This document shows, piece by piece, positions 1,750-34,621 of a DNA stretch of 43,585 bases. The notes beneath the pieces were generated by a model. It searched no databases, was not told the origin of the DNA, and saw nothing but the letters and a program-made list of their open reading frames with translations. Position numbers and translations under genes: made by a program. This DNA comes from Bdellovibrio sp. (GTDB taxonomy: Bacteria > Bdellovibrionota > Bdellovibrionia > Bdellovibrionales > Bdellovibrionaceae). Location of the stretch: positions 1 through 43,585 of the forward strand of contig JABWCO010000012.1 of assembly GCA_013360185.1 (NCBI GenBank), given 5' to 3'. Position 1 is the stretch's first letter. Every line of letters begins with the position of its first letter.

Positions 1750-2307
1750 TCACTGATTTTTAAGCATCGCAAGGAGAAGATAAATAGAAGAAAAAGCTCC
1801 CACCCATGCACCAATAACCGTTAAAAGTATCAACATGACTTTCTTAGACTTCGAGAAGTTCGTATTTTTTAGAATATGCAAGATACCAAACGAGGCTACT
1901 CCAGCAAATCCACCCGCAATTAGTCCTCCGCGTGTCGCCAGTGGGAGTGTCCAGATAAGGCCTAACGCGATATACTTTAAAGCTATCATATCTTTGCTTT
2001 GCGCCAATGAAGACTCTTGAATAGCAGGACCGATGACTTGTTCAATTCTATGCCCCCTATCGGAGACCAATGTCACCTTGGGCATCCACTTTGACCAGTC
2101 CACACCGACAGTTACTGTCACCATAGAATCATCCGACATTTTTAGTTTATACTCACGATGAAGTCGAAAACTAAAAGCGTTATTCATTATGTAACCATTT
2201 ACTTTAACTTCATCCCTACCTGAAAGACCTAAGAATAAATCGACGGAATCAACTTGTTCGTTGCCAAGATATACCTTCCATCGCCAGTCTTGATATTCTG
2301 AAAACAT
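1750..2307 (-). CDS. Membrane protein of unknown function, 185 residues
   Basis: The first 110 residues look soluble and beta-rich (WRWKVYLGNEQVDSVDLFLG and a later VTVTVGVDWSKW segment). The last 75 residues contain two to three membrane segments, including a glycine-rich stretch (GGLIAGGFAGVASFGILHIL). The ATG at 2307 has a good AGGAG site (GCAGAGGAGCCTTAT before ATG). It lies in the minus-strand run of membrane proteins behind the Rhs gene and is the last gene before the phase-variable lipoprotein. I do not recognise the family. An accessory or immunity-like role is only a guess from position. Confidence 0.7.
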   Translation of the reverse strand: MFSEYQDWRWKVYLGNEQVDSVDLFLGLSGRDEVKVNGYIMNNAFSFRLHREYKLKMSDDSMVTVTVGVDWSKWMPKVTLVSDRGHRIEQVIGPAIQESSLAQSKDMIALKYIALGLIWTLPLATRGGLIAGGFAGVASFGILHILKNTNFSKSKKVMLILLTVIGAWVGAFSSIYLLLAMLKNQ

Positions 2308-2456: not shown

Positions 2457-2666
2457 CTACTTTCTTTTATGCTTGACCGCGCCGGCTACACCAAAAAATA
2501 TTGCTATCGCTAACGCTCTCAACAGGGCGGATTTCAAATTCAAATGAACTAAATCTCCTTTAATGAAGAATACCAGAGACACTTCGATTATAAAGAAAGG
2601 TAAGGACATTAAAATTAATGCCTTCAAAGAAATTATAAGAAACATCTTCATATTATCAATATTCAT
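2457..2666 (-). CDS. Small two-segment membrane protein, 69 residues
   Basis: Two hydrophobic segments (about residues 8-34 and 44-62) with a positively charged tail ending KHKRK suggest an inner-membrane protein with a short loop. The start may be residue 1 or the Met at residue 6; no strong ribosome site is visible for either. Size and layout match the next gene upstream (68 residues), and the two may be diverged duplicates. It is AT-rich by eye. Family unknown. Confidence 0.55.
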   Translation of the reverse strand: MNIDNMKMFLIISLKALILMSLPFFIIEVSLVFFIKGDLVHLNLKSALLRALAIAIFFGVAGAVKHKRK

Positions 2667-2740: not shown

Positions 2741-2947
2741 CTAAAATTTAATATGCCTATATTTTTCAAGTGTCATAGCAAAGACCACTCCCGTTACCAA
2801 AAAAATCAAGGTATCGAACTTTGTTAGAAAAAAACTCCATCCTTGCACCATAAGTACAATGCTACCTAGTACCAAAAATGGAGCGCCAAAAAATAAAGAC
2901 ATCTTAAATAGTAGAGATAGAAATTTTCTAACCTTGACAAAAATCAT
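2741..2947 (-). CDS. Small two-segment membrane protein, 68 residues
   Basis: It has a basic N terminus (MIFVKVRKF), a hydrophobic segment at about 10-35 and a second at 45-60, then a basic tail (EKYRHIKF). It starts 2 bases after the stop of the upstream 198-residue protein, and that gene's last codons supply the AAGG ribosome site, so the two are translationally coupled. The layout resembles the 69-residue protein downstream. Unknown family; its coupling suggests it works with the upstream membrane protein. Confidence 0.6.
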   Translation of the reverse strand: MIFVKVRKFLSLLFKMSLFFGAPFLVLGSIVLMVQGWSFFLTKFDTLIFLVTGVVFAMTLEKYRHIKF

Positions 2948-2949
2948 TG

Positions 2950-3546
2950 CTACCCTTGCGATTTTCCTACCAACTCTAAACTTTGCATTAGAGAAATACT
3001 TTTAAGGCCAGAGTCACTCTTTTTATCTAAAGAAATATATACTAATTTATCTAGATTTTTATGACTCTTCTGAATCATATCTACAATATAGCTCCATTCC
3101 TCTTTCTGAATCTTATACACATATCCTTGATCCTGATTCTTTAAAGAGGAGAACTTAAAAAACATTTTCCCGTCAGAAAATAAAACAATTTTATCAAAAT
3201 CGTGAAAAGAATAACTACGCTTCTTGTTTTTTAAATAAATTATTCCTTCGGAAATACATACGTCGAATTTCCATGCTAAAAAATAAATCGAAATAATTCT
3301 AGAAATGTAGGTAAGTAGAAGAAAAAATAAAAAAATCCAAAAAACCTCAATAAGTTGACCAAATAAAACATCTATTGAAAAAGAACGTTGAGAGATAAAA
3401 GGAGCAAAAACTCTCACCGCGAGCGCAATCATCGACAATGCAAATACTGAAAAAAGAGCACTACGCATAGATCTGTATGATACGTTTACTTTTAGAAAAT
3501 TTCCAAAGTTTTGAAATTTTACTTTCGGAGAAAGGTCTATTTCCAT
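2950..3546 (-). CDS. Membrane protein of unknown function, 198 residues
   Basis: The N-terminal 25 residues are soluble, followed by two membrane segments (about residues 29-50 and 65-92). The cytoplasmic-looking C-terminal part (FDVCISEGIIYLKNKKRSYS and onward) resembles the PH-like folds that follow paired membrane helices in some small bacterial membrane proteins. That resemblance is by eye only. The upstream AGGAG lies about 13 bases from the ATG, longer than usual. It is part of the Rhs-downstream run and coupled to the 68-residue gene behind it. No function can be assigned. Confidence 0.65.
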   Translation of the reverse strand: MEIDLSPKVKFQNFGNFLKVNVSYRSMRSALFSVFALSMIALAVRVFAPFISQRSFSIDVLFGQLIEVFWIFLFFLLLTYISRIISIYFLAWKFDVCISEGIIYLKNKKRSYSFHDFDKIVLFSDGKMFFKFSSLKNQDQGYVYKIQKEEWSYIVDMIQKSHKNLDKLVYISLDKKSDSGLKSISLMQSLELVGKSQG

Positions 3547-3575: not shown

Positions 3576-3800
3576 TTATGAAGATTTTTTATTTCTCTTT
3601 GTAGTTTCACTTTTTTCTGAGCGCCACTTAGATATAAGAACGATCGCCGCCACAATTAAAACGACCGCTATTACTAGCACACTTTCTATTTTTTTATAAA
3701 AATCAAATCCTTTCGACAAACTAAGACCGATTACAATAGAGCATGCGATGGTTACGTTTATCAAAGCTTGGCGAAAAGTAAACTTCTCATTCTTTCTCAT
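3576..3800 (-). CDS. Small two-segment membrane protein, 74 residues
   Basis: An open frame extends to 3932, but that would overlap the upstream gene. The ATG at 3800 has a GGAG site 6 bases ahead (GGAGTTTTT before ATG), so I choose it. The product is MRKNEKFTFRQAL, then hydrophobic segments at about residues 13-28 and 40-57, and a strongly basic tail (KWRSEKSETTKRNKKSS). It is the third small two-segment membrane protein in this run. Family unknown. Confidence 0.65.
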   Translation of the reverse strand: MRKNEKFTFRQALINVTIACSIVIGLSLSKGFDFYKKIESVLVIAVVLIVAAIVLISKWRSEKSETTKRNKKSS

Positions 3801-3846
3801 AAAAACTCCATTAGTACGCACTTCGAACAGCACATCCGACAATAAA

Positions 3847-4596
3847 TCAATCCACATTCCATCCCATAATTTTTCTAGGCTTAGCAAACTCAACAATCGG
3901 AGCACCCTGCAATGAATTTGCGTCAATAACATTCCACTGCCGATCTATTTTCTGCCATTTTTGGTTGTAAAAATCGGCATCAGGAAAAAGTTCGTCAATT
4001 AAAGAAAACCTATCGTTCATACTTTTCCGAGTCGTCCTTATTCCAATATATTTGCCAACCCCGATAGTCTGAAAACAGACGCAGATCAAATAACCATCTT
4101 CAGTTTTGAAAGGCTCCATCTTTAAATCCGTGGACCTCCATGACCAATTATTTCTTGCAACCTCTTTATCGGTATCATAACGACCTGCTTGAGACTTTCG
4201 ATACCTTAGAATAAGTTTACGTGAAGATTTCTCTATAGTTTCCCATCTTTGAGTTTCAAGTTTTTTCATAATTTGCTCGGCGGGGAAATCCTTAACTTTT
4301 ATAAAAAAATGGTTATCTGGAGAAAAAAAATAGGGATACCACTTCATTTTCCTATACTCCAAAAAAATATTCGCACATAAAAACCCAACAATTATCGGCA
4401 TTACAACCGTCATGCCGATGATATAAGTTTCCCAATAAGAACGAAGGGGCGAAGATTCATTTCTAAGCTCAATTAAATAGGTAACATACATGATTAAAAA
4501 TGGAAATGTGACAAAACAGACTAAAAAACCAAATAAACCAACGCTGCAAATCTCCTTTAAAAATGTGCGAGGACGCTGAATCACAATCTTTATCAT
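3847..4596 (-). CDS. Membrane protein coupled to the Rhs gene; candidate immunity protein
   Basis: This 249-residue protein has two N-terminal membrane segments (about residues 16-42 and 57-76) and a soluble C-terminal domain of about 165 residues with many aromatic residues (KWYPYFFSPDNHFF, NNWSWRSTDLKMEPF). The ATG shares one base with the TAA of the giant Rhs gene (TAATG), so it is made by re-initiation after the toxin-like protein. In Rhs and other polymorphic toxin systems the gene directly behind the toxin encodes the immunity protein. Here the toxin tip is hydrophobic, and a membrane-bound immunity protein would fit a pore-forming target. I know of no family match; the immunity role is inference from position. 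Confidence 0.7.
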   Translation of the reverse strand: MIKIVIQRPRTFLKEICSVGLFGFLVCFVTFPFLIMYVTYLIELRNESSPLRSYWETYIIGMTVVMPIIVGFLCANIFLEYRKMKWYPYFFSPDNHFFIKVKDFPAEQIMKKLETQRWETIEKSSRKLILRYRKSQAGRYDTDKEVARNNWSWRSTDLKMEPFKTEDGYLICVCFQTIGVGKYIGIRTTRKSMNDRFSLIDELFPDADFYNQKWQKIDRQWNVIDANSLQGAPIVEFAKPRKIMGWNVD

Positions 4597-7500
4597 TATG
4601 GCACCTTCATCGAGTTACAGTTGAGTCCACACGCAGGACTTAAATCTCCTGTAGTTGGTAGAACACTATTCAATAGTATATTGACTCCTCTTTCCAACCA
4701 AAATGAAATCTTAGGTCCATACTCTTTCGCCCCAACAGCTATTGCGGGAGTCGCAAATCCGACTATACCTCCAGCAACAACACCTGTAAGCGCTCCAGCC
4801 CAACCACCAGTCGCTCCGCCGTGAAGTCCTAATACGGCAGCATTGCCAACTGCGAGAGCCGTTCCTAATCCAAATCTTGGTAAAGCCGCCGCAATTCCAT
4901 ACCCAAGCCCCCCACCAGCGACACTCAATAGAAACCCTTGAGTCCAATTCGTCAGAAACACGCTTCCAAAATTAGCCCAGAAATTCCCACCCATGAGAGA
5001 AGCCTGAAGAGAACTAAACAATATTGCGGGAATTAGAGAAGTAATCGCCGCCTCAAATAAAAATCCGATAATAGGAGCTAAAAAGGCAAATTTCCCGTCC
5101 GGGTCCACGTAGTTCACACCATTGTTATTTGCGTAAACGTACTTGTTGATCACACTAAGGGCACTTGAAAGTTTACCCGGATGCGGATCTTGCTGAATAA
5201 ATCTACCCGTCGCTGCATCATAGTACCGAGCCCGATAGTAATATAACCCAGATTCTTCATCAAACTCTCTGCCCGTATAAGCAAAATGCGTTCGTAGCGG
5301 CGGAGCTGAAGAAAGATCGGCGCTATTATCTGGACTTACTAATCCCAGTACCTCTCCAAATGCAGAGTAATGAATACGCTGAACAATATTCCCCGCACTA
5401 TCTGAGACTGCCTTCACTGAGCCTACATGGTCTTTGATAAATTCATAAGTTCCAGAATTCTGAGCGAGCCCAGCGGAAACTCCAGCGCTACTTATATCAA
5501 CACTCAATACATCATCTGTAGTCAGAGCAGAGTGAGTGTATCGCGCAAGTAAATTTCCAGATGCGTCTAGTTCGACAGACATCTCCTCACCATCATAACC
5601 GTAGTTACGCGTGTAATTTTTAATTATGTTACCAGGGCTATTGCTGTCATAAACCTGCTTCCGAATACGTCGGCCCGCCGGATCATAATGATAGCTCGCT
5701 CCCTTGTATGAGTTCGCAGAAAGTGCATTGGCGTAATAAGCCACGGACACAAGTTGATTTTCTGAATTGTGTTCAAACTTAACAACCTGTCCCGAGGACT
5801 TATTAACTTTTTGCATAATATTGCCAGAGTAATCATAAAAATACTGATTTCTGCCATCATCGGTTAAAAGCTGTCCCGTGGAGTCATAGACATAAGCACC
5901 CAGCAAATCAGTTATTCGATTTCCTAAGTTATCGTAAGAATAAGATTCTTGCGCAGGAAGACTTAGTGGTGTCGATCCATTGAGGGATGCAAAGGTTCGA
6001 TTTACACTCGAAACATAGCCAGCTTCATCATATCCGTAACTTTCCGTGGCAGATACCCCCTGACTTCCAGTTACAAAGCCAAGTTGATTATGGCTAAGAG
6101 TTATTGCTTCGACCGATTGGCTGTTTGATGTTTTATTATATATCAAAGATTGCAAATTTCCGGTCGCATAAGAAATCAATTTATTTATTCCCACGCCATG
6201 AACTTGCTTAAGCCTATTCACCCCATCATATCCAAAGTAAAAATTCTCACCTTTCGTATTCTGAAGTTGTCCCAATCTCATCGCTGAATCATAGCCATAT
6301 AAAACTTGACCACCCAGCGAATCTGTCATGCTCGTGCGTTGATCAAAAGAGTTATATGTGTAAGCAGTCGCATAAGAGCTAAACCCAGAGGCTCCATTGA
6401 AGGCTTGAGTCTGAAGACGAGAACCGACATCATAAGTATTTGAAATCGTACCCGTGCTGTTCGAGACTGTTGCCAAATTTCCCCTAATATCATAAGTGAA
6501 GCTATAAGTTTGCTCCGGCGTGACCTTAGAAATCATTTGGTTCAAGTCATCGTAACCAAAGGTGATCGTCTGATTTCTCTCATTAGTCTGACTGATTAAA
6601 TTTCCATTTTGGTCATAAGCCATCGTCACACTATAATTGAGCGGATTCGTTTTCGATGTCAGCCGTCCCAAAGAGTCGTAGACAAAAGACGTTACTTTCC
6701 CCTTAGGATCTGTAACCTCAGTCAATTCACCAGCAAGAGAATACGTGTAAAGAGTTTTCTCTGCTCTCGGGTTCGTTACCGATGTCAGCCTATTGAACAA
6801 GTCGTACTCGTAGGCTTCATTGACGAGCTGCGCTCCATTCACAAGAGTTTTTAAACTCATATTGCCATAGGCATCGTAAGAGAATCTTGTCTCTTTATCA
6901 TCCGTATTGACCTTAACTAAGCGACCTTTATTGTCGTAATCGCGAGTCTCAGTCGTTGAGTCACCATTGGCGCCGACTTTCTGGATCTGAATAGGTAATT
7001 CAAATCCATTGTATGCCACGGTGGTCGATGCCCCTGCGATGTCCGTCGTGCTTAGCAATAACCCCGTCGAACTCGAATAATTTCTGTGGACTGTTTTACC
7101 GTTTGTAGTTTCCGCGATCACATTCCCTAGGGTATCGTACCCCAAGATTTTCTCTTTGCCCGTTGCGGAATCATAACTCCGCACAAGATCACCCGTGCTC
7201 GAGTTATACTCAAACTCTGCATTCGAAGTATCTGGCCTAATGACGGAAACTGGTTTTCCATTTTCATTATAAGCAAACGTTGTCTTTCCACCGCTTGCAT
7301 CAGTTATCACCTGAACAAATCCGTTAAGGTCTTTGTCGATTTTGATCTCAATTCCTTTAGGGTCTATGATCCCATCATAAACTCCTCTCGTCGCTCCCAC
7401 GCGACTTTGCAATTGCCCAGGATTTTCATTAGTTCCAGATGCCAAAGATTTAGAAACTGAGTCTGCTATCTGAATTTGCGAGTTATCTGGCTTAATAACT

Positions 7501-10500
7501 TTTACCAGTCGATTGGCAACGTTATAGAAGTACTGTATCGCACCGTTCTTTTTATTGCCCTCTACCGACATGAGTCCTTTGGCATTGTACTCGTACTCTT
7601 GCCGTGAGCCATCAGGATACTCAACTTCAGAAAGCTCACCTTTCGAATTATAAGAGAATAACGTCAGTCTCCCACCGGGATCACGAATGCTGGAAAGAAG
7701 GTCGCCGGAATATTGGTATAAAACGCTATCACCATTCGGATAGGTAACTTGCGTTAAACGATTATTAGTATCGTAGCTATAATTTACAGATAGCCCAGCT
7801 AAATCAACGCTCTGAGTTTGATAGCCCTTATCATTAAAATGAACTTTAAAGCCATTTCTAAATGTTCTGACCCACGATCCATCTTCATTTTTCACAATAC
7901 TTGAAAGATCTTTATTTCCAGGAACAAATGCCAAACCATTTGCCGAATCGGCAAACGTAATTTTGCGAATCTTATTGTTTCCCGAATCTGAAACGACCAG
8001 CGCACCATCATTCGTTACAAATAATTGCGTCGGACTAAAGAGCTGAGTACTTAGAGGAGGAGTACTATCTCCATTGTCACCAGGTGCTCCAGTACCAGCC
8101 ACAACGACGGCGGCTCTATTGGCAAAGTCAATTCTTACAACTCGATGATGCCCAGTATCTGCGACGTATAAATAGCCCTTGGCATTATCTACCGCTAAAC
8201 CTGATGGCATTGAAAAGAAAGCTTTCTCCGCGGCTACAGAGTTAGCTAATACTCCCCCTTCACTTTGTGAAAGTCCGGCGAAGACAGTCATCTGTCCACT
8301 CCCATCAACTTTCATAATGTGTCCCGCCTCTGTCGCAATAAAGAGATTTCCTGCGGCATCTAATGCGACTGCACGAGGATGAAATAGACCTCCCTCAGTT
8401 GCATTGACAGTACTTCCTACTGGAATATCTGAAGTTCCACCACCACCAGCAAGAGTGCTGATGACGTTATTATCGAAGTCCACCAAACGAACTTGGTTAT
8501 TTCCCGTATCGGCAACAATAAATGTATTTGCTCGAGGACCATAGATAACAGCCGTCGGCTTATTTAATGGACTAGAGTTAACTTGCGAATAAGGGTCCCA
8601 GCCCGCAACGGGAACCACCCCAGAGCCTTGCACCAAGTTTCCACAGGAATTGTTTCCGGTATTTTCACTCGATGTACTGTCTTGAGTTCTATAGCTGCAA
8701 TTCATTCCTGTTCTGTTGTTACATTCCGTCATAACGAAATTCTGGAGATTGAAATCTGGAATCGGATTTGCCAAGTGGGATGCAACTCCCAGACCTTGAG
8801 GATTGATTGAGCCCGCAGTACCCAGCCTACCGGCAAACAACGAAGTTGTTCCGTTTGAAACTCGGATCAATGCATGACGAGTTTGATCTGAGTACACAAC
8901 ATCACCATTGGACAATGGTAAGAATGTCACGGGCTGACTGCCGTAAGTATAGTCAAATTTTTTGACCTCGCAATGAGACTTCGGAGTATATTGAATGACA
9001 GGCTCGTAGTGATCTCGAACGCAGATATTTCCGCCCGGCCACTCCCAACGTTCATCACAAACATAAATATAATCAACGATGTCAGATTGAGTCCAATTGT
9101 AGTTATAGTTACCCGCTACAATGCCTTTCATCTCAGACGCAGTTCCAAATTCTTGTGCTGAAACTGAACTTCCGCTTAAATTCGCTTGATAGAACTTCAT
9201 GCCATCAGATTTTGCGAACTGTACATTTGGATAACCGACTAAGCCGACTCCTTTTTTCAAGTCGCCGCCAAGGGTTCCGATATTGGCAATCGTTTTAATA
9301 GTATCTTTTTGGTAATAACTAGAGACATTTCCATTCGATTCTTCAATCATCAAATGATTGTCGTTTGGATTTACAATTCGCTGTACTCCCGCAATCTTCC
9401 ACCCACGACCTACGGACGATTGAACCTCATTCTGAACAAATAAAGGACCGCCCACGTCTTGATCAAAAGCGTTTTCGATAGTTCTGCGCTCATTGATATT
9501 TACCGGGTCAGCTTTAATCATAGGCTGCTCTGTTTGCGCCGAAACATTTTGATCAGCACCCAAGACACGATACTCTACGGTTCTCGTACCCGTAATCTGC
9601 TCTTTAAAACTTGCTTCGTAATGGACATTGAATGGATAAATACCTGTTGGTAAAAAGCCAGTATCATCCGTTCCTGGCTTTTTCATTTCTACTGCAAAAC
9701 TTACAACAGCCTGATTTGGAACTCCGACCATTTTAAATTTCTCAGTTTGAATATCATTTGAATGAAATTGTGCCGTTATATAATCAGGCTGGATAAGAGA
9801 GCGCACCGTAGTCACCGAAGTGAAGTCGATGGCCGTCAGTGCCTCTACATACGGCTGCTTAATAAGGTCGTTATCCGTTTGAATGGGGCTCTTATCCAAA
9901 CATGCAGGAATAATAAATATTCCCGAACAAAAACGAGTACGAATCTTATATTTTACAACATCAGTTCCCGTTTCAGTATATGTTTGCGCCTCCAGCTCTT
10001 GCAGAGGAAAGTCGAAAAGGTTTGTCACCGCCGCCGTTGGTCGCGCCCAACTAGAGTTATAAATTAAAGACGGTGTAATTGTTTTATTCAAAACTGTAAA
10101 TGATGGTGCATCTATTGATGTCTTAACGCCACCGTCAGCAATATTTGCTCCAGGTTTATCCTGATCCCCGATTTTTTTAACCACGGGAGATAATACTGTT
10201 GCGTATGCAAGAGAGAAATGGCGAATCCCTTGACCAGATTTAGTACGAACCGACTGTCCACCGTTTTCAACAGTACCAACGCCCCCGACTTCCCAGTCGC
10301 CCGTTTTCGAATTATAAAGCATAATCGCAACATCAGTCCCCTGAGGGTACTCACCTACATTCGGCATCGTAACATCTACAGGTTCAGAAAACGTAGTTCC
10401 CGAGGGTTCCAGTGCAATCACTTTCGTTGGCCGCGCAAAAGCGGGAGGCGGAATTGTTGTACGGCTCACCGGGATTTCTACAATCGAAATTTTCCCATCG

Positions 10501-13500
10501 CTACTGCCCGCTGGAAATTGCACGGACTGCGCAGGAATCTCAAGTGTAGTACCGGGTGCATGGGTATCTGTAACCGTTCCGCCTGCCTGGTAATCGACGT
10601 GACCGCCCGTATTATCAAGATACGTTGGGGCTAGATAGATCGGTCTTTGAATAATACTATCATTGCTAACACTCACTGTGACATTAACCAAAGATTGAGA
10701 GAATCTTTTGGTTGCTTCCTCACCCTCTGCCAAAGTTACCGTACTACCATCAACGACAAGGGTACGATCACCGCGAAGTGAGTTGATATTTGTTGTTGAT
10801 CTTCGGAAAACAAACACTCCTCCACTATCGGTCGTTGTCTGCACATCTGTTCCGACAATTTTTACTGTCGCATTAGCCAGCGGCTGCCCGCTTGTATCGA
10901 ATACCGAGCCCGATAAAATGATGTCACTATTGCTTCCTAAGAAAATCTCATGAATTTCAACTTTTCCAGTCAATGGATCTTGCGCTTTTAGACTCGCACT
11001 GGAAAAGGCATCCACTAAAAATTCGAAAGCTCCTTCAAAGTTGGCATTCTTAGTCTCGGAGCTAAAGAATCCCGTACTCAAAGTCACCGAGTATCCTGGT
11101 TTACTTGCTCCAGCGGCACCTTTTACTAAATACTTTGTTCCATCCTGAACCGGGACTATTGTAACCAACTCTGGATACAATGTACGAATAAGGACGCTAA
11201 AACTTACGGTGAGTGAGGTTTCATTTCCAACTTCATCTATTCCTACAACATAGAATTGCTGAAGCCCTTCGGACGCAAAAGTATATGGCATATTGAATGA
11301 TTTTCGATCTGCCGAGAAGTTTGGCACCGATTCACCATTGATAAATACTTCGCTTAGGCGCTTGTCTGATGTTCCTGATATAACTTGATAAGCCGCATCC
11401 AACTGCTGACCTTCCAAGGGATTCGTCATAGTCAAGACTGGTGGCTGCGTATCCATACGGATTGGTCCCGTTTGATAACTAGATTCATTGCCCCAGTCAT
11501 CCACAGCAATAATTTTAATATAATTATCAATTTCAGGATCAAGTGGAACATCCCATGAAATGAAACGCTCAAATGTAGTAAAGACCAAGTTGTCGTTTAC
11601 ATAAACTGATACCGTCGGCAAATGAATATCTTGCGCAGAAATATCAAGACGTATTGAGGGAGTATTCACGTAAGGTTTATAACCCGTCACTGTCAAAACA
11701 GGTGCTTGGAAGTCTGTTTCGATCACGATGTTATTTTCTAGCGTTGATTTATTACCCGCTAAATCAGTAGCAACAAGTTTAATTGTCTTTGTCCCATCGG
11801 TAAGAAACAACAACTGCCCCGCAAAGCTTGTACCCCCTTCATCCAAAGGAAGAGATAAACCATTTGCTGAAATATCCGACAGGGGCTCATCAGAAAATCC
11901 TGAAATCATCACCAACCGCTGATTACTTCTGATTGTTTCGTCAGATGCGGGTAATACGCTATTAAGAACTGGAGGAGTAACATCTACCGTAATTGTATCT
12001 GTAACAATCGAAGAAGAGTTTCCAGAAGCATCTACAGAACTAACAAATACGGTATTTGTCCCTTCAGGCAGGTGAAGGTCTTGAATAATTTTTTTACTCT
12101 TAGACTCAACAGCTGTCATTCCATTTACCTGAACGGTCGTCGTGGTGCTTGCAATATCACGAATATCCAACGACAGGTGGAAATTAGGGTTATTCGTTAA
12201 AGTCGGCTGAGTCGGAAAACCCGTTGCTAAAATTTGTGGCGGCTCTGTATCTGCTACAGGCGCAACTCGATCAACAATAACTTGTAAGTAGGTTGCAGAA
12301 CCGCCCCAAATTTGAACGGAAAGCTTATTTATTTCTTTTAGCTTTACAACACCCTCAAATAAATACTGAAACTTACTTACGTCACCGCTTGCAGTAACCC
12401 TTAGGTCATTCACATAAACGTAAGCATTATTGACTCTATATTGATTCACATACTGTGAGTTCATCCAATTGTTGAACTGGCAAAGTAGATCAAAAATTGA
12501 ATTACAAGGATCATTCGTGGGACGAGGCTCTCCATCTGCATTGAGGATGCGAATTCTATATAATTCATCAAGCTTATCGCTTGGAGCATTAAAGTTCACG
12601 GTATGCATGACCGGGCTCTGAGTATCGGAGCCGTTAAAAGATGTCGGGCCGTAAATCGTCTCTTGTGAATCGAAATAAGGACTTGGACTGACTACAATGG
12701 ATCTTTCAACTTCAGACTTTCCACCACGGTCATCGGTAGCCTTCACCGTCACGATATATGTTCCGGGGGCTGAGTAAACATGATCCGCCGTCCAGGCGCT
12801 CGTCGTTTTTGTTCCATCACCCCAGATAAATTCAAAGCTCGATATGACACCATCTGGATCATATGAACCACTGGTATCTACATAAATATATTCTGGAGTC
12901 CCTCGTATAATATTTGTTTTAATGACCGGAGTTTGATTGGTAGGAAGATTTTGTGCAGGCGGCAAAACTTCAACCGGGATAGATATTTGATCCTCCTGTC
13001 CGGCTGAGTTTTTTACCTTCAGTGTAATTTGATATGTACCCGGACTATTGTAGGTATAGTTAGCACTCAATCCTGAGGCAGTTCCGGTTCCATCTCCAAA
13101 ATCCCAAGTATATGTTAAGGAACGTCCTAAGGGATCAAAGGAATAGCCCGCCTTGACTTGTTGTTGCATCGGAGCTGAACCAACAAGTTTTTTGACTGAA
13201 AAGAAGGCCTTAGGCTTCAAATTAGCAACCACAGTAGACTCAAGAGAGTAGCGCAATTGACTTGTGGGAAATCCTAACTTCGTAAATTCGAAGGTATTGA
13301 TGTCTCTATTGAAATTCAAAGCCACTTCTTTATAAGAACGCAAGTGACCAATCGTTGCACTGGCAATGACAGCCCCATTCAATTTAAAACTATAGTTTTC
13401 AAACTGGGTATAATCTGTCTGAAGTTTCTCAACGGCATTATTTGAAAGGCATTGTCGAACAAGTCCAGCAGGAGTTAACCCCAAACAACTTGGCGCGAGG

Positions 13501-13697
13501 TAAGGCCCCGTAGTTCCATTGTAGACCTTGTAAAGATAATAGCCTTGAGGCATTCCCGTTATATCGACATTTCTGGTAAAAGTATAACTTGCTGTATCTG
13601 GCGTTGTCACAAGCTCCGGCCCGTAGATAACATCAGCGCGAGACGCCACCGAACATAAAGATAATATCAACGTGAAAATAAAATTTGTTCGCAACAT
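4596..13697 (-). CDS. Giant secreted PKD/NHL/Rhs (YD-repeat) protein, candidate toxin carrier
   Basis: The protein has 3033 residues and starts with a Sec signal peptide (MLRTNFIFTLILSLCSVASRA). In order it shows two PKD domains (about 160-340, with WDFGDG and IWGDG), an unassigned part, then about four Ig-like repeats each opening near DxxPPxL (480-850). Next are a carboxypeptidase-regulatory-like fold (about 930-990), a ZU5-like region (1040-1165) and NHL repeats (about 1690-1905, with VADTGNNQVR and VADTGHHRVV). A long YD-repeat shell follows (about 1950-2780), then the Rhs core signature GLYYYRARYYDAATGRFIQQ and VDPDG at about 2866. The last about 165 residues are hydrophobic and glycine-rich, unlike nuclease tips. 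Known Rhs/TcC shells enclose and cleave off such variable tips. There is no PAAR domain, so export is through Sec, not obviously type VI. AAGGA precedes the ATG. The next gene overlaps the stop. Confidence 0.93.
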   Translation of the reverse strand: MLRTNFIFTLILSLCSVASRADVIYGPELVTTPDTASYTFTRNVDITGMPQGYYLYKVYNGTTGPYLAPSCLGLTPAGLVRQCLSNNAVEKLQTDYTQFENYSFKLNGAVIASATIGHLRSYKEVALNFNRDINTFEFTKLGFPTSQLRYSLESTVVANLKPKAFFSVKKLVGSAPMQQQVKAGYSFDPLGRSLTYTWDFGDGTGTASGLSANYTYNSPGTYQITLKVKNSAGQEDQISIPVEVLPPAQNLPTNQTPVIKTNIIRGTPEYIYVDTSGSYDPDGVISSFEFIWGDGTKTTSAWTADHVYSAPGTYIVTVKATDDRGGKSEVERSIVVSPSPYFDSQETIYGPTSFNGSDTQSPVMHTVNFNAPSDKLDELYRIRILNADGEPRPTNDPCNSIFDLLCQFNNWMNSQYVNQYRVNNAYVYVNDLRVTASGDVSKFQYLFEGVVKLKEINKLSVQIWGGSATYLQVIVDRVAPVADTEPPQILATGFPTQPTLTNNPNFHLSLDIRDIASTTTTVQVNGMTAVESKSKKIIQDLHLPEGTNTVFVSSVDASGNSSSIVTDTITVDVTPPVLNSVLPASDETIRSNQRLVMISGFSDEPLSDISANGLSLPLDEGGTSFAGQLLFLTDGTKTIKLVATDLAGNKSTLENNIVIETDFQAPVLTVTGYKPYVNTPSIRLDISAQDIHLPTVSVYVNDNLVFTTFERFISWDVPLDPEIDNYIKIIAVDDWGNESSYQTGPIRMDTQPPVLTMTNPLEGQQLDAAYQVISGTSDKRLSEVFINGESVPNFSADRKSFNMPYTFASEGLQQFYVVGIDEVGNETSLTVSFSVLIRTLYPELVTIVPVQDGTKYLVKGAAGASKPGYSVTLSTGFFSSETKNANFEGAFEFLVDAFSSASLKAQDPLTGKVEIHEIFLGSNSDIILSGSVFDTSGQPLANATVKIVGTDVQTTTDSGGVFVFRRSTTNINSLRGDRTLVVDGSTVTLAEGEEATKRFSQSLVNVTVSVSNDSIIQRPIYLAPTYLDNTGGHVDYQAGGTVTDTHAPGTTLEIPAQSVQFPAGSSDGKISIVEIPVSRTTIPPPAFARPTKVIALEPSGTTFSEPVDVTMPNVGEYPQGTDVAIMLYNSKTGDWEVGGVGTVENGGQSVRTKSGQGIRHFSLAYATVLSPVVKKIGDQDKPGANIADGGVKTSIDAPSFTVLNKTITPSLIYNSSWARPTAAVTNLFDFPLQELEAQTYTETGTDVVKYKIRTRFCSGIFIIPACLDKSPIQTDNDLIKQPYVEALTAIDFTSVTTVRSLIQPDYITAQFHSNDIQTEKFKMVGVPNQAVVSFAVEMKKPGTDDTGFLPTGIYPFNVHYEASFKEQITGTRTVEYRVLGADQNVSAQTEQPMIKADPVNINERRTIENAFDQDVGGPLFVQNEVQSSVGRGWKIAGVQRIVNPNDNHLMIEESNGNVSSYYQKDTIKTIANIGTLGGDLKKGVGLVGYPNVQFAKSDGMKFYQANLSGSSVSAQEFGTASEMKGIVAGNYNYNWTQSDIVDYIYVCDERWEWPGGNICVRDHYEPVIQYTPKSHCEVKKFDYTYGSQPVTFLPLSNGDVVYSDQTRHALIRVSNGTTSLFAGRLGTAGSINPQGLGVASHLANPIPDFNLQNFVMTECNNRTGMNCSYRTQDSTSSENTGNNSCGNLVQGSGVVPVAGWDPYSQVNSSPLNKPTAVIYGPRANTFIVADTGNNQVRLVDFDNNVISTLAGGGGTSDIPVGSTVNATEGGLFHPRAVALDAAGNLFIATEAGHIMKVDGSGQMTVFAGLSQSEGGVLANSVAAEKAFFSMPSGLAVDNAKGYLYVADTGHHRVVRIDFANRAAVVVAGTGAPGDNGDSTPPLSTQLFSPTQLFVTNDGALVVSDSGNNKIRKITFADSANGLAFVPGNKDLSSIVKNEDGSWVRTFRNGFKVHFNDKGYQTQSVDLAGLSVNYSYDTNNRLTQVTYPNGDSVLYQYSGDLLSSIRDPGGRLTLFSYNSKGELSEVEYPDGSRQEYEYNAKGLMSVEGNKKNGAIQYFYNVANRLVKVIKPDNSQIQIADSVSKSLASGTNENPGQLQSRVGATRGVYDGIIDPKGIEIKIDKDLNGFVQVITDASGGKTTFAYNENGKPVSVIRPDTSNAEFEYNSSTGDLVRSYDSATGKEKILGYDTLGNVIAETTNGKTVHRNYSSSTGLLLSTTDIAGASTTVAYNGFELPIQIQKVGANGDSTTETRDYDNKGRLVKVNTDDKETRFSYDAYGNMSLKTLVNGAQLVNEAYEYDLFNRLTSVTNPRAEKTLYTYSLAGELTEVTDPKGKVTSFVYDSLGRLTSKTNPLNYSVTMAYDQNGNLISQTNERNQTITFGYDDLNQMISKVTPEQTYSFTYDIRGNLATVSNSTGTISNTYDVGSRLQTQAFNGASGFSSYATAYTYNSFDQRTSMTDSLGGQVLYGYDSAMRLGQLQNTKGENFYFGYDGVNRLKQVHGVGINKLISYATGNLQSLIYNKTSNSQSVEAITLSHNQLGFVTGSQGVSATESYGYDEAGYVSSVNRTFASLNGSTPLSLPAQESYSYDNLGNRITDLLGAYVYDSTGQLLTDDGRNQYFYDYSGNIMQKVNKSSGQVVKFEHNSENQLVSVAYYANALSANSYKGASYHYDPAGRRIRKQVYDSNSPGNIIKNYTRNYGYDGEEMSVELDASGNLLARYTHSALTTDDVLSVDISSAGVSAGLAQNSGTYEFIKDHVGSVKAVSDSAGNIVQRIHYSAFGEVLGLVSPDNSADLSSAPPLRTHFAYTGREFDEESGLYYYRARYYDAATGRFIQQDPHPGKLSSALSVINKYVYANNNGVNYVDPDGKFAFLAPIIGFLFEAAITSLIPAILFSSLQASLMGGNFWANFGSVFLTNWTQGFLLSVAGGGLGYGIAAALPRFGLGTALAVGNAAVLGLHGGATGGWAGALTGVVAGGIVGFATPAIAVGAKEYGPKISFWLERGVNILLNSVLPTTGDLSPACGLNCNSMKVP

Positions 13698-13923: not shown

Positions 13924-14397
13924 ATGAAAACGAAAACTATGCTCTCACTTATCGTCGCTGCGATTCTCGCAGGTGCTTATCAAGCAAATGCCGCTCAAGG
14001 TACAGGACGCGCAACTATTAAAGTTGTTACTGCGATTGCTGTAACTAACGTGTCTGATCTCGTGTTCTCAGAAGCTGCCGCAGGTGCTGCTGCTGAAACT
14101 GTCGATCCTGACCAAACAGAAACTGCGCAAAATGCAAGTTTCGATATAGCTGGAGAGCCAAATCGCGCTATCGCGATCACTCTACCTAGCGATAATACAG
14201 TTTTTATGGTTACTGGTGGCGGCGGAACTCCTGACCAGGAAATCGCTGTAGATCAATTTTTAAGCAATAACCCTGCTCAAATTGATCCTTCTGGCACATC
14301 TCAACTTTTCGTTGGTGCAACTCGCGCTGCTTTGAGTGCAACTCAAGCATCTGGTGACTACGAGGGCAATTTCGCTGTTGACGTAGTATATCAATAG
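13924..14397 (+). CDS. DUF4402 pilin-like subunit (major pilin candidate)
   Basis: The 157-residue product has a Sec signal peptide (MKTKTMLSLIVAAILAGAYQ, cleavage near ANA-AQ) and a DUF4402-type beta-sandwich domain. Conserved features shared with the second copy at 15269-15751 are VSDLxF near the N terminus, NASFxIxGEPxR, a glycine-rich turn, VGATR and the C-terminal GDYxGxFxVxVVY strand. The ribosome site AAGGAGGAAAG is the strongest in the cluster. This fits a highly made structural subunit. It is followed by a PapD-like chaperone and later an usher, so it is probably exported to the surface as a pilus subunit. It is the first gene of the plus-strand cluster, divergent from the Rhs gene. 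Confidence 0.88.
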   Translation: MKTKTMLSLIVAAILAGAYQANAAQGTGRATIKVVTAIAVTNVSDLVFSEAAAGAAAETVDPDQTETAQNASFDIAGEPNRAIAITLPSDNTVFMVTGGGGTPDQEIAVDQFLSNNPAQIDPSGTSQLFVGATRAALSATQASGDYEGNFAVDVVYQ

Positions 14398-14419
14398 TTG
14401 AAAAGCTGAACTCATCTAG

Positions 14420-14452
14420 CTTAACGTCTTTTCATTAAGGAAAGGCGTTAAG
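14420..14452 (+). promoter_or_regulatory. Intercistronic stem-loop between pilin and chaperone
   Basis: CTTAACG pairs with CGTTAAG, then a T.G wobble, then CTTT with AAAG, leaving a 9-base loop. The AAGGAAAG ribosome site for the chaperone is in the loop and 3' arm. With the GTG start downstream this should lower chaperone synthesis relative to pilin, and could protect the 3' end of pilin mRNA after processing. Confidence 0.65.
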
Positions 14453-14457
14453 TACCC

Positions 14458-15285
14458 GTGAAAACCCTCATCTACTTTTTTATTTTCTTTCCCTCGATTG
14501 TTTTGGCCCAAGCTCAAGTTTTCCCCACTCGCCTTACCCTAACCGAAGAAGCACCATCATCATATTTGAATCTTAAGAATACGACGGCATCACCTCAAAA
14601 GTATCGTATTGAACTGGCGCAATACCTCATGAAGAAAGACGGCACTGTCGCTAAAGCCAATGTCGAAAATAATCCACTGACTGAGGTTCTGAAATTCTCT
14701 CCAAAGGTCGTTGAACTTGCCCCAAATGAAAAGCAAGTGGTAAGAGTTATGGCAACCGCATTTGATGATCTTACGGATGGGGACTATTATGTCTACCTTC
14801 ACTTTATTCCAGAATCTGGATCAGCTAGCTCATCTCCCACCAAAGCCAAGTTCTCCCTTCAGGCTCGCATCGCTGTAGCAGTACCCGTCGTTGTTCGCCA
14901 CGGCACTGCTAAAGTAGACGGAAAACTAACCGAGCTAAAAGCCGCTAATGTCAAAAATGGCGACCTCGAAGTGACATTTAAAATTGCCAACTCTACAAAA
15001 TACTTTTTAACAGGAAATTTGGACATTATTGGAGTTACAGATAAAGGCGAAACCGTATTATCTCAAACTATCGGCATCACTTCTTACATCCCCTCCCGTA
15101 CCGTAAAAACCTCGGTCACAACAAAAGATGTCGCTGAAAAGCTCAATGGAGAATCATTAAAGAAAGTAAAAGTTAAATTTGCCTCAAATGAAAATAGCGG
15201 CACTACTTTCGAGCTTCTGGGGGAAGCTACTATTGACAGTAGCTCATCAGCAAAGAAAACGAAAAAGGTTAGTAAACAACGGTAA
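14458..15285 (+). CDS. PapD-like periplasmic pilus chaperone
   Basis: The 275-residue product has a signal peptide (about residues 1-18, FFIFFPSIVLAQA) and the two-domain Ig fold of pilus chaperones. Domain 1 has QVFPTRLTLTEE, then SYLNLKNTTASPQKYRIELA and the LAPNEKQVVRVM strand; domain 2 begins near VAVPVVVRHG. This layout resembles the chaperones of the alternative (Ecp/CFA-like) pathways more than classical PapD. It has a lysine-rich tail (SSAKKTKKVSKQR). The start is GTG. The last 17 bases overlap the convergent second pilin gene. Its role is to bind DUF4402 subunits in the periplasm and pass them to the usher. Confidence 0.85.
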   Translation: MKTLIYFFIFFPSIVLAQAQVFPTRLTLTEEAPSSYLNLKNTTASPQKYRIELAQYLMKKDGTVAKANVENNPLTEVLKFSPKVVELAPNEKQVVRVMATAFDDLTDGDYYVYLHFIPESGSASSSPTKAKFSLQARIAVAVPVVVRHGTAKVDGKLTELKAANVKNGDLEVTFKIANSTKYFLTGNLDIIGVTDKGETVLSQTIGITSYIPSRTVKTSVTTKDVAEKLNGESLKKVKVKFASNENSGTTFELLGEATIDSSSSAKKTKKVSKQR

Positions 15286-15751
15286 CAAAAAATTGCCCAG
15301 TATAGTCTCCAACTTTTTGGCTCGACGAGATTGCTTGCCTGGTCGCTCCTACGAAAACCATTTTTTTACCTGTTTGATTTAACATCCCGACACCTGAAGG
15401 ATTTGAACTAAACTCCTGGATCAAAATCTCTCGATTTGCGCCACCAATTCCATTCACCATTCTCACCGAATTCCTTGCAGGCAAAATGATCTGAAAATTG
15501 CGTAAGGGTTCTCCCTCAATTTCAAAACTTGCATTCTCTCGTGTTTCGATACTATCAGGAAGAACGGTCTTCGGACCATCACCAGGAGAGGCTTCGCCAA
15601 AATCTAGATCTGAGACCTTTTTAATTTTTAGTCGGTGAACAATTTTCTGATTTGCATTTGCAGCAGTCGAATCACCAATGCTTGGATTTGCGAAAGTAGT
15701 ACCAGAAAAGACAAATATTAAAGATAAAACATAAACTTGTTGTAATTTCAT
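15269..15751 (-). CDS. Second DUF4402 pilin-like subunit, inverted inside the cluster
   Basis: The 160-residue product has a signal peptide (YVLSLIFVFSGTTFA) and a DUF4402 domain clearly related to the first pilin: VSDLDFGEASPGDG, ENASFEIEGEPLR, VFVGATRQAI and the C-terminal GDYTGQFFVTVVY. It reads against the other cluster genes, overlaps the 3' end of the chaperone gene by 17 bases, and starts only 28 bases from the usher start. It may be a minor or tip subunit, or an alternative pilin. Any transcript running from pilin 1 and chaperone into the usher would be antisense to it. No clear ribosome site precedes the ATG. Confidence 0.87.
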   Translation of the reverse strand: MKLQQVYVLSLIFVFSGTTFANPSIGDSTAANANQKIVHRLKIKKVSDLDFGEASPGDGPKTVLPDSIETRENASFEIEGEPLRNFQIILPARNSVRMVNGIGGANREILIQEFSSNPSGVGMLNQTGKKMVFVGATRQAISSSQKVGDYTGQFFVTVVY

Positions 15752-15765
15752 AAGATCGAATCTTA
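15751..15765. promoter_or_regulatory. Perfect palindrome between divergent pilin-2 and usher starts
   Basis: TAAGAT and ATCTTA flank a 3-base centre in the 28-base gap, reaching into the first base of the pilin-2 start codon. It could be an operator or an RNA hairpin controlling pilin 2. Function is unproven. Confidence 0.35.
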
Positions 15766-15779
15766 ATAATACTAACCTT

Positions 15780-18239
15780 ATGAAATCAATACTAATCAGC
15801 TACCTATTATTGCTATTTACGCTGAGCGCCTTAGGTGCTGAGTTAGAGGAGCAGGTACTGGAAGTGAGCACCATAGGTGGGGTCATTTTATCTGACCCCA
15901 TTATCGCTCTATCTAAAGGCACAGAAGTATTCTTACCCTTATTAGATACCGCTAAAATTTTGGGCATTCAAGTAGAGCAGCCGGACAAGGGCATCTTCAA
16001 AATTTATAGAACGCCCACAGACCTAGATACAATAGATCTTTCCAACTGCCCCAATTCAAGCCTAAAAGCCTGTAAATCATTAGTAAAACAAAAAGAAAAC
16101 TTCTATCTGAATATTGAATTTTTAAAAGATTCTCTTCAATGGCCTCTGTCTATTAATTTAAAATCCATGGTCCTTTCGGTCAATGTGGACCCAAAATCTA
16201 AAAATATTGTCAGGCAATCAAATGAGCCACGCCCCTATAAAATCATTAGAAAACAATTTGATTACCCCGCCCTCCGGTTGGAGGCCACGGCCTCTTCGGA
16301 AAAAAACAATAATCTTCTGAATGTGTATGAAAGTCAGCCGCTCCTAAATCATGACTCAGATATGGTTGTCTCCACCTCGCCTCAGCAAACGTATTTTCGC
16401 TGGACGATTTCAAAAGAAGTCATTGAATCAACCGCTCCCTATGAAATAAAAAACTATGAGTTAGGCTCCACCCAAACGGTCGATACCAAATACCTCTTCT
16501 CTCCGACTCTAATATCGGGCGTTCATTTTTCGAATATCAAATCTGGAGAAAATATATTCGACACTCAAAATCTTTATGAAAAAGGACCGCCACGATGGAA
16601 GGTTGAAATTTATGTCAACGACATCTATCTCGGAGAAACCTCTATTGATATAAATGGAAATTTCTCTTTTACAAACGTTCCTATTTTCTACGGGCTCAAT
16701 AAAATTCGCTATAGAATGACCAGTCCGATTGGAAACATTGTCGAGATTGACCGAACCCTCAATGTATCCAGTGATTTTCAAGGGGCCGGACGTTTGAAAT
16801 ACCAAGCGTCCTTTGGACAAGCCGTCGGAAACGCCAACTATGTTGGCAGCGGAGCCCTTAGCTATGGGCTCACTTCCAATATGAGTGCGCAGCTCGGACT
16901 TTCCCAATTTGCCTTACCTAACGCCTCCGATATTAAAAGATATTCCACAATGGGATTGAGCTACCTTCAGCCTAGCTTTTCCTTGGGATTACAAAAACTA
17001 ACCTCTTTTGATAATCAAGAAAATGCTTGGATATATACACCTAAGGCCAATGTAGGAAGAGTCCTGATCACTGGGGAATATGCAAATTTCGAAAACCTTA
17101 AAACTGCTCTTATCAACCCGCATAATGGAGACAGTCTAAATTCACTGAAAAAGATTTCTCTTCTGGCACCCATTCAGTTTCAATATCCCGTTACCGCACA
17201 ACTTGCATTTCAGGAGTCTACATTCACCGATATAGCATCAAATCAACAACTTCAAGCCCGTATTTACTCCATGCTACCGTCTTCATCTCTTTTACTTGAA
17301 TCCAATAAATTTTGGCCTTCTGATGCCAAGCCTGACCTTTATGTTGAATACGGAAATTACAACCGATCTTTTCGCGGCAAATACGGAGTTCTTATCCAGA
17401 ATGATAAATATGCGAAAACAAAAATGGAGCTAGAATATCTACTTGAGAATAATCTTTATCTGACGCTTTCTGCGAATCTTCCTCCTGCATTAAAAAATGG
17501 ATCTTACGCAGCCGGAGCAAATAAAATCATCCACGATATTCAATGTGAACTCAATATTTCTTACTCCGAAATTCAAACACTCTACAGCCTGACGCTTTCG
17601 ACAAATATCAAAACAAAACAAGAAGATGGATTCCAACTGAGTCACGAAGAATCCTATCGACAAGCAAATATTGAGGTCTTTGCATTTATTGATGAAAACT
17701 CAAACGGGAAATTTGATATAGGAGAAAAACCTTATCCAAAATTGAGAGTTCTAGAGACCAATAGACAAAAAGACTACATCACCAATGAAAGCGGGATTGC
17801 GACAATTCCATCCCTTAGCCCTTACCAGCGAGTTTCCTTAGAAATTGTAAAAGAGTCGATCACAAATATCTTCTTAACAGCTCAAGACTTCCAAAGTGAT
17901 TTCATACTAACTCCCGCACAACAATTACGGATAGAGCTTCCAATTAAACCATCATTCGATGTTAGAGGGATCATAGTAAATCCATACTTCAAGAAACTCG
18001 TACCTCTTGAAATTCTAGACTCCAATAATAATATTATTGGAACAACGCTCTCTTCATCTTCTGGAAAATACAAATTTACTGATCTTCCCGGAGGTACATA
18101 CTTTATTAGAATCTCTCAAGACTTTTTGGTAAAGAATCACTTACGCTCAAATCCAGAGCTTATAGCTGTTGATCTTCTCGGAAAGGCTGGAGCCAGATCT
18201 GCCGAACAAATATATATAGAAGTTATCAATAAGAACTAG
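15780..18239 (+). CDS. Outer-membrane pilus usher
   Basis: The 819-residue product has a signal peptide (MKSILISYLLLLFTLSALGA). It is organised like the ushers of the alternative (EcpC/CFA-like) chaperone pathways. First comes a plug-proximal N-terminal domain, then a beta-barrel region with alternating strands (about 200-640) that includes the WKVEIYVNDIYLGETSID and NVPIFYGLNKIRYRM segments seen in usher middle domains. A C-terminal region carries two small carboxypeptidase-regulatory-like folds (VFAFIDENSNGKFDIGEKP and GKYKFTDLPGGTYFI). It would secrete and assemble the DUF4402 subunits. No ribosome site is obvious before the ATG, which suggests low expression. No tip adhesin gene follows. 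Confidence 0.85.
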   Translation: MKSILISYLLLLFTLSALGAELEEQVLEVSTIGGVILSDPIIALSKGTEVFLPLLDTAKILGIQVEQPDKGIFKIYRTPTDLDTIDLSNCPNSSLKACKSLVKQKENFYLNIEFLKDSLQWPLSINLKSMVLSVNVDPKSKNIVRQSNEPRPYKIIRKQFDYPALRLEATASSEKNNNLLNVYESQPLLNHDSDMVVSTSPQQTYFRWTISKEVIESTAPYEIKNYELGSTQTVDTKYLFSPTLISGVHFSNIKSGENIFDTQNLYEKGPPRWKVEIYVNDIYLGETSIDINGNFSFTNVPIFYGLNKIRYRMTSPIGNIVEIDRTLNVSSDFQGAGRLKYQASFGQAVGNANYVGSGALSYGLTSNMSAQLGLSQFALPNASDIKRYSTMGLSYLQPSFSLGLQKLTSFDNQENAWIYTPKANVGRVLITGEYANFENLKTALINPHNGDSLNSLKKISLLAPIQFQYPVTAQLAFQESTFTDIASNQQLQARIYSMLPSSSLLLESNKFWPSDAKPDLYVEYGNYNRSFRGKYGVLIQNDKYAKTKMELEYLLENNLYLTLSANLPPALKNGSYAAGANKIIHDIQCELNISYSEIQTLYSLTLSTNIKTKQEDGFQLSHEESYRQANIEVFAFIDENSNGKFDIGEKPYPKLRVLETNRQKDYITNESGIATIPSLSPYQRVSLEIVKESITNIFLTAQDFQSDFILTPAQQLRIELPIKPSFDVRGIIVNPYFKKLVPLEILDSNNNIIGTTLSSSSGKYKFTDLPGGTYFIRISQDFLVKNHLRSNPELIAVDLLGKAGARSAEQIYIEVINKN

Positions 18240-33387: not shown

Positions 33388-33538
33388 GGAACACCTCCTG
33401 GACCATTTGCTCTATTTTAGCGATTTGTGCGACAAACTAAAGGTCACTGACTCTTCTTGCTAAAAATCAGTGGGTCGTTGCTCTTTAAGATTTCTTTTTG
33501 TTAAAATAAATAATTCTTTTTCGGCACAAAGGAAGTTT

Positions 33539-34621
33539 ATGAAAATTCTGATGCGCAGTTTGTTTTTCCTGGGGTGCCTCCTGGCTTTAGGAGCTTGCAA
33601 TAAAAGTGATAACAGTGGCGGCGCCGCGAATAGTTGCTCCACCGCCCAACTTGAAACCGAGATGACTGCAAGCTTGGCACAAGCCAGTTCCGAAGTGGAT
33701 TTTACTTATGTGATCGAGCGGGCTGATGGACGACGTTTTTCGTACAACCGCGGCGCTTCTAGTTTGACGACTTCGTATGAATCGGCTTCCACTTCAAAAC
33801 TTGTAACCGCCGCGGTGATTCTTCGCCTGGTGCAAGCTGGCACTCTAACTTTGAGTGATCGCCCCCAAGATCATATCGCGTCCTGGCCTTTAACAAATTC
33901 AGATCCACTTTATAGTCTTACGCTTAAGCAACTTTTAAGTTTTACCTCGGGACTAATGGCCGCGGAACCTGCGTGCTTAAGCGTGGGGATTGCAAACTTT
34001 GAAACCTGTGTCACCAATATCGGCAATGCCAACGCCAACAAAACGGCACCTCCTGGAAACCAGTTCTATTATTCTGGCAACCACATGCAGGTCGCCGGCT
34101 TAATGGCCGTGAAGGCTTTAGGTGTGAGTTCGTGGTCGCAAGTGTTTGCTGATTTTAAAACGGCGACAGGTCTTTTTGCCTCGAGCACTTATGATCTGCC
34201 ATCTAGTTCGAATCCGCGCTTAGGCGGTGGTATGCACTGGACAGCACAAGATTACATGGCCTTTCTTAAGGCGCTGGCCGCGGGCACGCTGCTAAATTCA
34301 GCCATGATGACACAACTTTTAACCGATCAAACGGCCAGCGCCACAATTAGCTATTCCCCCGTCGCCGACGCAATGAATGAAGACTGGCATTATGGCCTTG
34401 GCTTATGGCATGAGTGCCAAAATTCTGTCTATAACTGCACCCCAGCGGTGCGAGTTTCAAGTCCCGGAGCCTATGGTGCCTATCCATTTTGGGATCGTAG
34501 CAAAAATTATTTTGGCATCGTCGCACGCCAAGGAAGCTTTGGCAGTTACCCCAAAGGTATAGCTGTCGAACGCACGGTGCGCGAAAAAGCTGAATCTTGG
34601 GCTGCGTGCACTAACAACTAA
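33539..34621 (+). CDS. Lipoprotein serine hydrolase of the beta-lactamase/DD-peptidase family
   Basis: I choose ATG at 33539 (AAGGAAG site). The 360-residue product is a lipoprotein (MKILMRSLFFLGCLLALGAC, Cys20). It has the penicillin-recognising fold: the SxxK motif STSK at 84-87 and the YxN motif YSGN at 178-181, with a GxG-like region near the end. It resembles class C beta-lactamases and esterase/DD-peptidase relatives. The substrate cannot be read from sequence; cell-wall or ester hydrolysis are both possible. It is followed by a small membrane protein and a pseudouridine synthase. Confidence 0.88.
   Translation: MKILMRSLFFLGCLLALGACNKSDNSGGAANSCSTAQLETEMTASLAQASSEVDFTYVIERADGRRFSYNRGASSLTTSYESASTSKLVTAAVILRLVQAGTLTLSDRPQDHIASWPLTNSDPLYSLTLKQLLSFTSGLMAAEPACLSVGIANFETCVTNIGNANANKTAPPGNQFYYSGNHMQVAGLMAVKALGVSSWSQVFADFKTATGLFASSTYDLPSSSNPRLGGGMHWTAQDYMAFLKALAAGTLLNSAMMTQLLTDQTASATISYSPVADAMNEDWHYGLGLWHECQNSVYNCTPAVRVSSPGAYGAYPFWDRSKNYFGIVARQGSFGSYPKGIAVERTVREKAESWAACTNN

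Follow-up and report, generated by a model that had tools for sequence, protein, structure and literature searches.

What does the giant Rhs gene of a Bdellovibrio genome encode, and what could the hydrophobic tip of its product do? The gene lies on contig JABWCO010000012.1 (assembly GCA_013360185.1), the whole of which, 43,585 nucleotides, is the window analysed here; this is one contig of a 3.5 Mb genome distributed over 227 contigs, and every coordinate below is a window position. A sequence-only reading had seen, at 4596-13697, a Sec-exported Rhs protein ending in a suggested membrane-inserting toxin. The gene stands as described, an ATG-started frame encoding 3033 residues, and is carried by the minus strand, which that reading had not given. 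By every testable feature its product is an Rhs/YD polymorphic toxin. As for its activity, analogy with known systems supports the reading of a membrane-inserting Rhs-type toxin, and we lean slightly towards seeing in this locus a Sec-exported polymorphic toxin accompanied by its immunity gene, the tip of which would insert into a membrane and there cause a leak or form a pore.

The argument begins with the 165 residues that follow VDPDG (residues 2864-2868), a length that had been given exactly. The Rhs core ahead of them keeps a conserved pair of aspartates, D2837 and D2865, 28 residues apart. A Kyte-Doolittle scan, used here for hydropathy as Pfam and NCBIfam were used for domain calls, gives the tip two clear peaks outside the signal peptide, at 2876-2897 and 2970-2988; of the three hydrophobic stretches that had been proposed, the two quoted are present (2879-2897 and about 2964-2985), but the clear peaks number two. 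The likeness to a glycine zipper is well marked: three overlapping GxxxGxxxGxxxG motifs, spanning residues 2960-2980, give a run of six glycines spaced in i+4 register, in excess of what composition would give (p ~0.003, 5000 shuffles of the tip), and the motif occurs nowhere in the other 2868 residues of the giant. The structure prediction that had been suggested as a check, a single-sequence AlphaFold model, is all-helical with four helices, and its confidence is low (pLDDT 55), which makes helices plausible and no more; with this low-confidence model Foldseek returned nothing significant. The tip, which had been called unlike nuclease or deaminase tips, has no meaningful match in Pfam, NCBIfam, PHROG or PADLOC. 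It has no homolog among 368 genomes of the phylum and no match in plasmid records, and a first scan of genome contigs with core and tip as a query found no relative. Two apparent likenesses were set aside: the match of L111, a glycine-rich protein that is no Rhs protein and is unrelated, was compositional, and the Rhs-core-like resemblance of tip residues 107-142 (E ~0.02) was taken as chance. A tip with neither a sequence nor a fold match could also act on a membrane protein or a lipid target without making a pore, as a membrane-embedded inhibitor or an enzyme of unknown fold, and other tips of the family do appear envelope-acting (Tlde1, YkuD, NlpC/P60, zincin and phospholipase-A2-like motifs). 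Yet we see in it no conserved residues, polar or catalytic, and its composition and zipper fit the known depolarising toxins; we hold such a target to be quite unlikely.

Is this tip a fixed part of the protein? It is not common to all Rhs proteins of the group, in keeping with the variable toxin that had been proposed: because orthologous shells bear other tips, and because this one has no relative in the genomes of the phylum, we may take it as a variable cassette. L037 aligns with the giant to residue 2872, stops at the DPxG, and carries a different tip beyond. In genome G016, two loci share a core stretch of 247 nt (95.5% identity), some 35 codons before the tip, past which they have different tips and different neighbours; the second of them comes after tyrosine-recombinase genes and before an IS3-type transposase. 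Locus L035 (G016:C2) is an orphan cassette of rhs core, tip and immunity gene, whose flanks hold an IS3-type transposase and three tyrosine recombinases. Elsewhere on orthologous shells we find tips with a zincin-like motif (L221, L227, L242, L036) or a phospholipase-A2-like motif (L217, L223), and many that are hydrophobic and glycine-rich with no enzyme motif, zipper types included. These replacements bear on the idea that the giant serves adhesion at the surface or a structural role, its tip being a hydrophobic plug or anchor and no toxin at all. PKD and Ig adhesion modules are present, divergent fimbrial (chaperone-usher-like) genes adjoin the giant, and metazoan teneurins are adhesion receptors; against this, on orthologous shells the exchange of tips falls exactly at DPxG, the same shell carries tips with enzyme motifs, and the neighbouring gene is coupled. 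An adhesin thus devoid of toxicity seems to us highly improbable.

What kind of shell carries the toxic tip that we favour? When the part extending from the transthyretin-like (TTR) domain to the core was compared with all PDB sequences, its first matches were the bacterial teneurin-like proteins 9ifo/9pt5 (phmmer E 7e-41), and a profile of six orthologs reached E 1.5e-84 with them, the aligned stretches covering NHL and YD regions through the core end; metazoan teneurins rank after them in this profile search. The giant has the NHL propeller followed by the YD shell, homologous to those of BiTLP, the bacterial teneurin-like protein of Bacillus inaquosorum; TEN_NHL is found in three members of the shell family, and the TTR domain, slightly under the curated cut-off here (PF13620, E 5e-7), is over it in L037. 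The YD shell and Rhs core had been called standard: the RHS repeats and the Rhs_assc_core are there, but the word does not do justice to a teneurin-like succession of NHL and YD regions joined to a ZU5 domain with an H-F-S motif. The Sec signal, PKD and NHL that had been listed are all on the giant, two PKD domains and NHL/TEN_NHL by Pfam and NCBIfam, and the signal, predicted to be of Sec/SPase I type, as the N-terminus MLRTNFIFTLILSLCSVASRA with cleavage before DV, judged by eye and hydropathy.

The kinship with BiTLP comprises adhesion modules, TTR, NHL, YD shell, DPxG core, a small variable tip and a downstream immunity gene (a candidate here), and the giant, which shares NHL, YD shell, TTR and core with teneurin-like proteins, may by analogy function like one. 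The two differ in several ways. The FN-plug of BiTLP finds no sequence match in the giant by profile comparison, and a conserved region of about 500 residues, in which the C1257 column is invariant across six orthologs, occupies that place; the tips are unrelated, with 165 residues here and 92 in BiTLP. Toward the end of the tips of giant orthologs, in the last 30 residues, cysteines cluster, often in pairs (24 of 40 vs 7.2 expected; for example L218, L229, L249 and L250). A disulfide tether between plug and tip, as in BiTLP, was considered and rejected: tip-end cysteines are enriched, yet their co-occurrence with plug cysteines, which is lacking, gives no support for one here. The locus would be of a type already known, the teneurin-like/Rhs polymorphic toxin, of which this giant appears to be a new variant. 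With residues 1000-1750 as a query the shell was found in 32 of the 368 Bdellovibrionota genomes. The six phyla named in the 2026 survey of teneurin-like proteins (PMC13018210) do not include this one. Animal teneurin receptors probably descend from teneurin-like toxins, and the presence of the latter in a predator phylum absent from that survey is of some consequence.

Between TTR and NHL, ahead of the NHL and YD regions, stands a further conserved domain. PF00791 (ZU5) matches 26 of 35 orthologs at E<=0.1, the best at 5e-7, and the Bdellovibrio giant alone weakly (E 0.026); a profile of the region puts the ZU5 domains of ankyrin and ZO-1 on top among PDB sequences, with weak E-values, and finds no match in full-length BiTLP (9pt5). 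The H-F-S motif is kept in 37 of 40 orthologs, its H and S being invariant in alignment A5. ZU5 proteins like PIDD cleave their own chain between the F and the S of this motif. The domain of the giant most likely does the same. ZU5 autopeptidases were described in RHS toxins in 2012 (Zhang et al. 2012, PMC3482391), at the N-terminal side of large RHS proteins, as predicted here; those proteins are mostly coupled to SpvB/TcdB-type proteins, whereas here the domain is lodged between TTR and NHL. This predicted autopeptidase stands where teneurin-like proteins carry their TIP domain, present in 96% of them (PMC13018210), and it is a possible counterpart of the latter.

The next gene downstream, of 249 codons, starts inside the rhs stop (TAATG); its product, with two N-terminal transmembrane (TM) helices and a soluble part (modelled with low confidence, pLDDT 50), is likely the immunity protein. 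No homolog was found among the 368 genomes. L112, another membrane protein, was dismissed as a compositional and unrelated match, and the similarity to a 233-residue product encoded downstream of ortholog L034 did not rise over shuffles (Z 0.8). Five small membrane-protein genes follow, which look like orphan immunity genes; this stretch downstream is rich in AT, at 36% GC vs 43% for the window, and its 198- and 185-residue proteins have no homolog in 66 family genomes. The locus offers a testable pair of tip and candidate immunity protein. Across the giant-shell set, a polytopic membrane neighbour comes after 13 of 21 hydrophobic tips vs 2 of 13 others (p=0.013). For all tips together, such neighbours follow 21/33 hydrophobic tips vs 22/57 others (p=0.029), or vs 3/18 tips with an enzyme motif (p=0.003), and the enzyme-like tips of the family tend toward exported or lipoprotein neighbours. 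The association is suggestive only, because the tip classes were refined after a first look at the data and the statistics ignore relatedness.

We may now propose how the system would work. The shell would be exported by Sec to the periplasm or the surface; its ZU5 domain would cut itself within H-F-S. A second cut, behind VDPDG, would be made by the two aspartates of the Rhs core, and the 165-residue tip would then stay enclosed in the YD shell, as has been observed for BiTLP and Tse5 (PMC13018210, PMC10684867). Freed near a target membrane, the tip would insert its helices into a cytoplasmic membrane from the periplasmic side and assemble via the glycine zipper into a leak or pore, as proposed for the Tse5 and BiTLP tips, and the translationally coupled 249-residue protein would block it in the inner membrane of the producer. 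The BiTLP tip, itself hydrophobic, must carry a signal peptide to be toxic to E. coli; it then permeabilises the membrane from the periplasmic side and admits propidium (PMC13018210); that of Tse5 is pore-forming, with an immunity protein of two TM helices (PMC9637101).

Tse5, a type VI Rhs pore-forming effector of P. aeruginosa, is like the giant in its YD shell, its Asp-pair cleavage motif, the similar size of its hydrophobic tip and the two TM helices of its immunity protein (candidate here). It differs by a PAAR-like N-terminus and type VI delivery, where the giant has a Sec signal, and by an Asp spacing of 23 (D1141/D1164, from residue numbers) vs 28; no sequence similarity between the two tips was found. 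The depolarising toxins EsxX and TelE share the extended C-terminal glycine zipper and the membrane immunity proteins; they are Gram-positive toxins secreted by the type VII system (T7SS) on an LXG carrier, without an Rhs shell. The ionophore toxins of contact-dependent inhibition (CDI; CdiA-CT) also have helical, polymorphic tips, membrane-depolarising in CDI, with small hydrophobic immunity proteins, but are borne by filamentous CdiA and two-partner delivery. The sequence-only reading had further separated the giant from PAAR-tipped type VI Rhs proteins, and rightly so: its N-terminus is Sec-like, and two core type VI genes, TssK (PF05936) and VipB/TssC (PF05943), are absent from the 3.5 Mb genome, the E. 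coli control having matched. Type VI delivery is therefore unlikely and, judging from its sequence, the giant is not a type VI Rhs effector.

Several points weigh against a membrane-inserting toxin. Its function as a toxin is drawn from sequence and analogy; both structure models are of low confidence (pLDDT 55, 50) and the fold search was empty; no dedicated delivery machinery is evident. In an earlier set, mostly of short Rhs proteins, membrane neighbours went with 10/16 hydrophobic tips vs 21/45 others (p=0.38), the later counts carry the reservations given above, and related tips have detectably related neighbours in just 1 of 12 pairs, a weak co-inheritance. Finally, the Clostridia homolog L155 has a HINT-type domain preceded by a comparable segment, hydrophobic and rich in glycine. 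It is on this last kind of observation that the chief alternative is built: the zipper segment would be a translocation or pre-toxin segment, opening a path for another activity, the terminal enzyme having been lost or being the short tail. Hydrophobic residues also lie ahead of the zincin-like motif in L221, L227 and L242, and a glycine zipper drives the translocation of the DNase Tde1 (PMC10240207). However, the some 45 residues past the zipper are too few for a known enzyme, no toxin remnant lies between the rhs stop and the coupled gene, and many orthologous tips end alike, at about 100-215 residues, with no enzyme motif, hence a design that recurs and not a single gene cut short. We find this alternative unlikely, and retain a tip that itself acts in the membrane.

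The shorter Rhs proteins in the family have Tlde1, YkuD, M91, NlpC/P60, DUF4329 and Gly-zipper tips, the activities of which, as predicted, are mostly envelope-directed. Among these proteins, Sec-exported ones (L045, L053, L054, L086 and others) with Tlde1/YkuD, NlpC/P60 and M91 tips have neighbours that are mostly exported proteins or lipoproteins. In a genome of the same genus (G011), the 19.9 kb locus L083 holds several rhs genes in tandem, and their tips differ. The interest would lie in a set of tips, found across the family, that are predicted to act on the envelope and would be exported independently of type VI secretion. We would suggest, tentatively and as a doubtful extension, a distinct Bdellovibrionota clade of ZU5-containing teneurin-like toxins, with tips tuned to the envelope (zipper ionophores, zincins, phospholipases) and immunity in the periplasm or the inner membrane; rival predators would use them against one another, around a shared prey cell or within it.

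Features of the rhs locus, in window positions
Feature	Position	Strand	Basis or remark
rhs/teneurin-like gene	4596..13697	-	3033 aa, ATG-started ORF running 13697 to 4596
Predicted Sec/SPase I signal peptide, res 1-21	13635..13697	-	sequence and hydropathy
Two PKD domains, res ~174-340	12678..13178	-	Pfam PF18911/PF00801
Ig-like / Glucodextran_B repeats, res ~495-855	11133..12215	-	Pfam PF09136; outer limits approximate
Transthyretin-like (carboxypeptidase regulatory) domain, res 928-970	10788..10916	-	Pfam PF13620/PF13715
ZU5-family domain, res ~1020-1185, predicted autopeptidase	10143..10640	-	PF00791 in orthologs; PDB matches
H-F-S motif, res 1160-1162, predicted autocleavage between F1161 and S1162	10212..10220	-	ortholog conservation
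Conserved region at teneurin FN-plug position, res 1186-1690, with C1257	8628..10142	-	position
NHL beta-propeller, res ~1745-1960	7818..8465	-	PF25021 TEN_NHL / PF01436; 9ifo NHL match
YD-repeat shell, res ~1985-2776	5370..7745	-	PF05593, 11 stretches; PDB 9ifo
Rhs-associated core / C-terminal plug, Asp pair D2837 (QDPHPG) and D2865 (VDPDG)	5094..5369	-	TIGR03696 E 6e-21
Variable tip, 165 aa, hydrophobic, all-helical (predicted)	4599..5093	-	hydropathy, structure model, homolog searches
Hydrophobic stretch FLFEAAITSLIPAILFSSL, res 2879-2897	5007..5063	-	Kyte-Doolittle
Glycine zipper, 6 Gly in i+4 register, res 2960-2980	4758..4820	-	motif scan vs shuffles
Cys pair of tip tail, C3023 and C3027	4617..4631	-	tip Cys survey
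Candidate immunity gene, 249 aa; soluble domain after two N-terminal TM helices	3847..4596	-	ATG overlaps rhs stop (TAATG)
Small membrane protein, possible orphan immunity gene	3576..3932	-	118-aa ORF; likely start 3800, 74 aa
198-aa two-TM protein, possible orphan immunity gene	2950..3546	-	ORF and hydropathy
68-aa membrane protein, possible orphan immunity gene	2741..2947	-	ORF and hydropathy
69-aa membrane protein, possible orphan immunity gene	2457..2666	-	ORF and hydropathy
185-aa protein, two C-terminal TM helices, possible orphan immunity gene	1750..2307	-	ORF and hydropathy

The fimbrial-type genes adjoining the rhs gene, at 13924-18239, encode DUF4402 proteins, a PapD-like chaperone and an exported protein of 819 residues, possibly an usher. 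Beyond the small membrane-protein genes, a perfect 8-bp tandem repeat of TTGCTGAG, in 10 copies (1403-1483), lies within a small minus-strand frame (1132-1554), which is possibly phase-variable. At 33470-34621, on the plus strand, the window also encodes a protein of the serine beta-lactamase family (PF00144).

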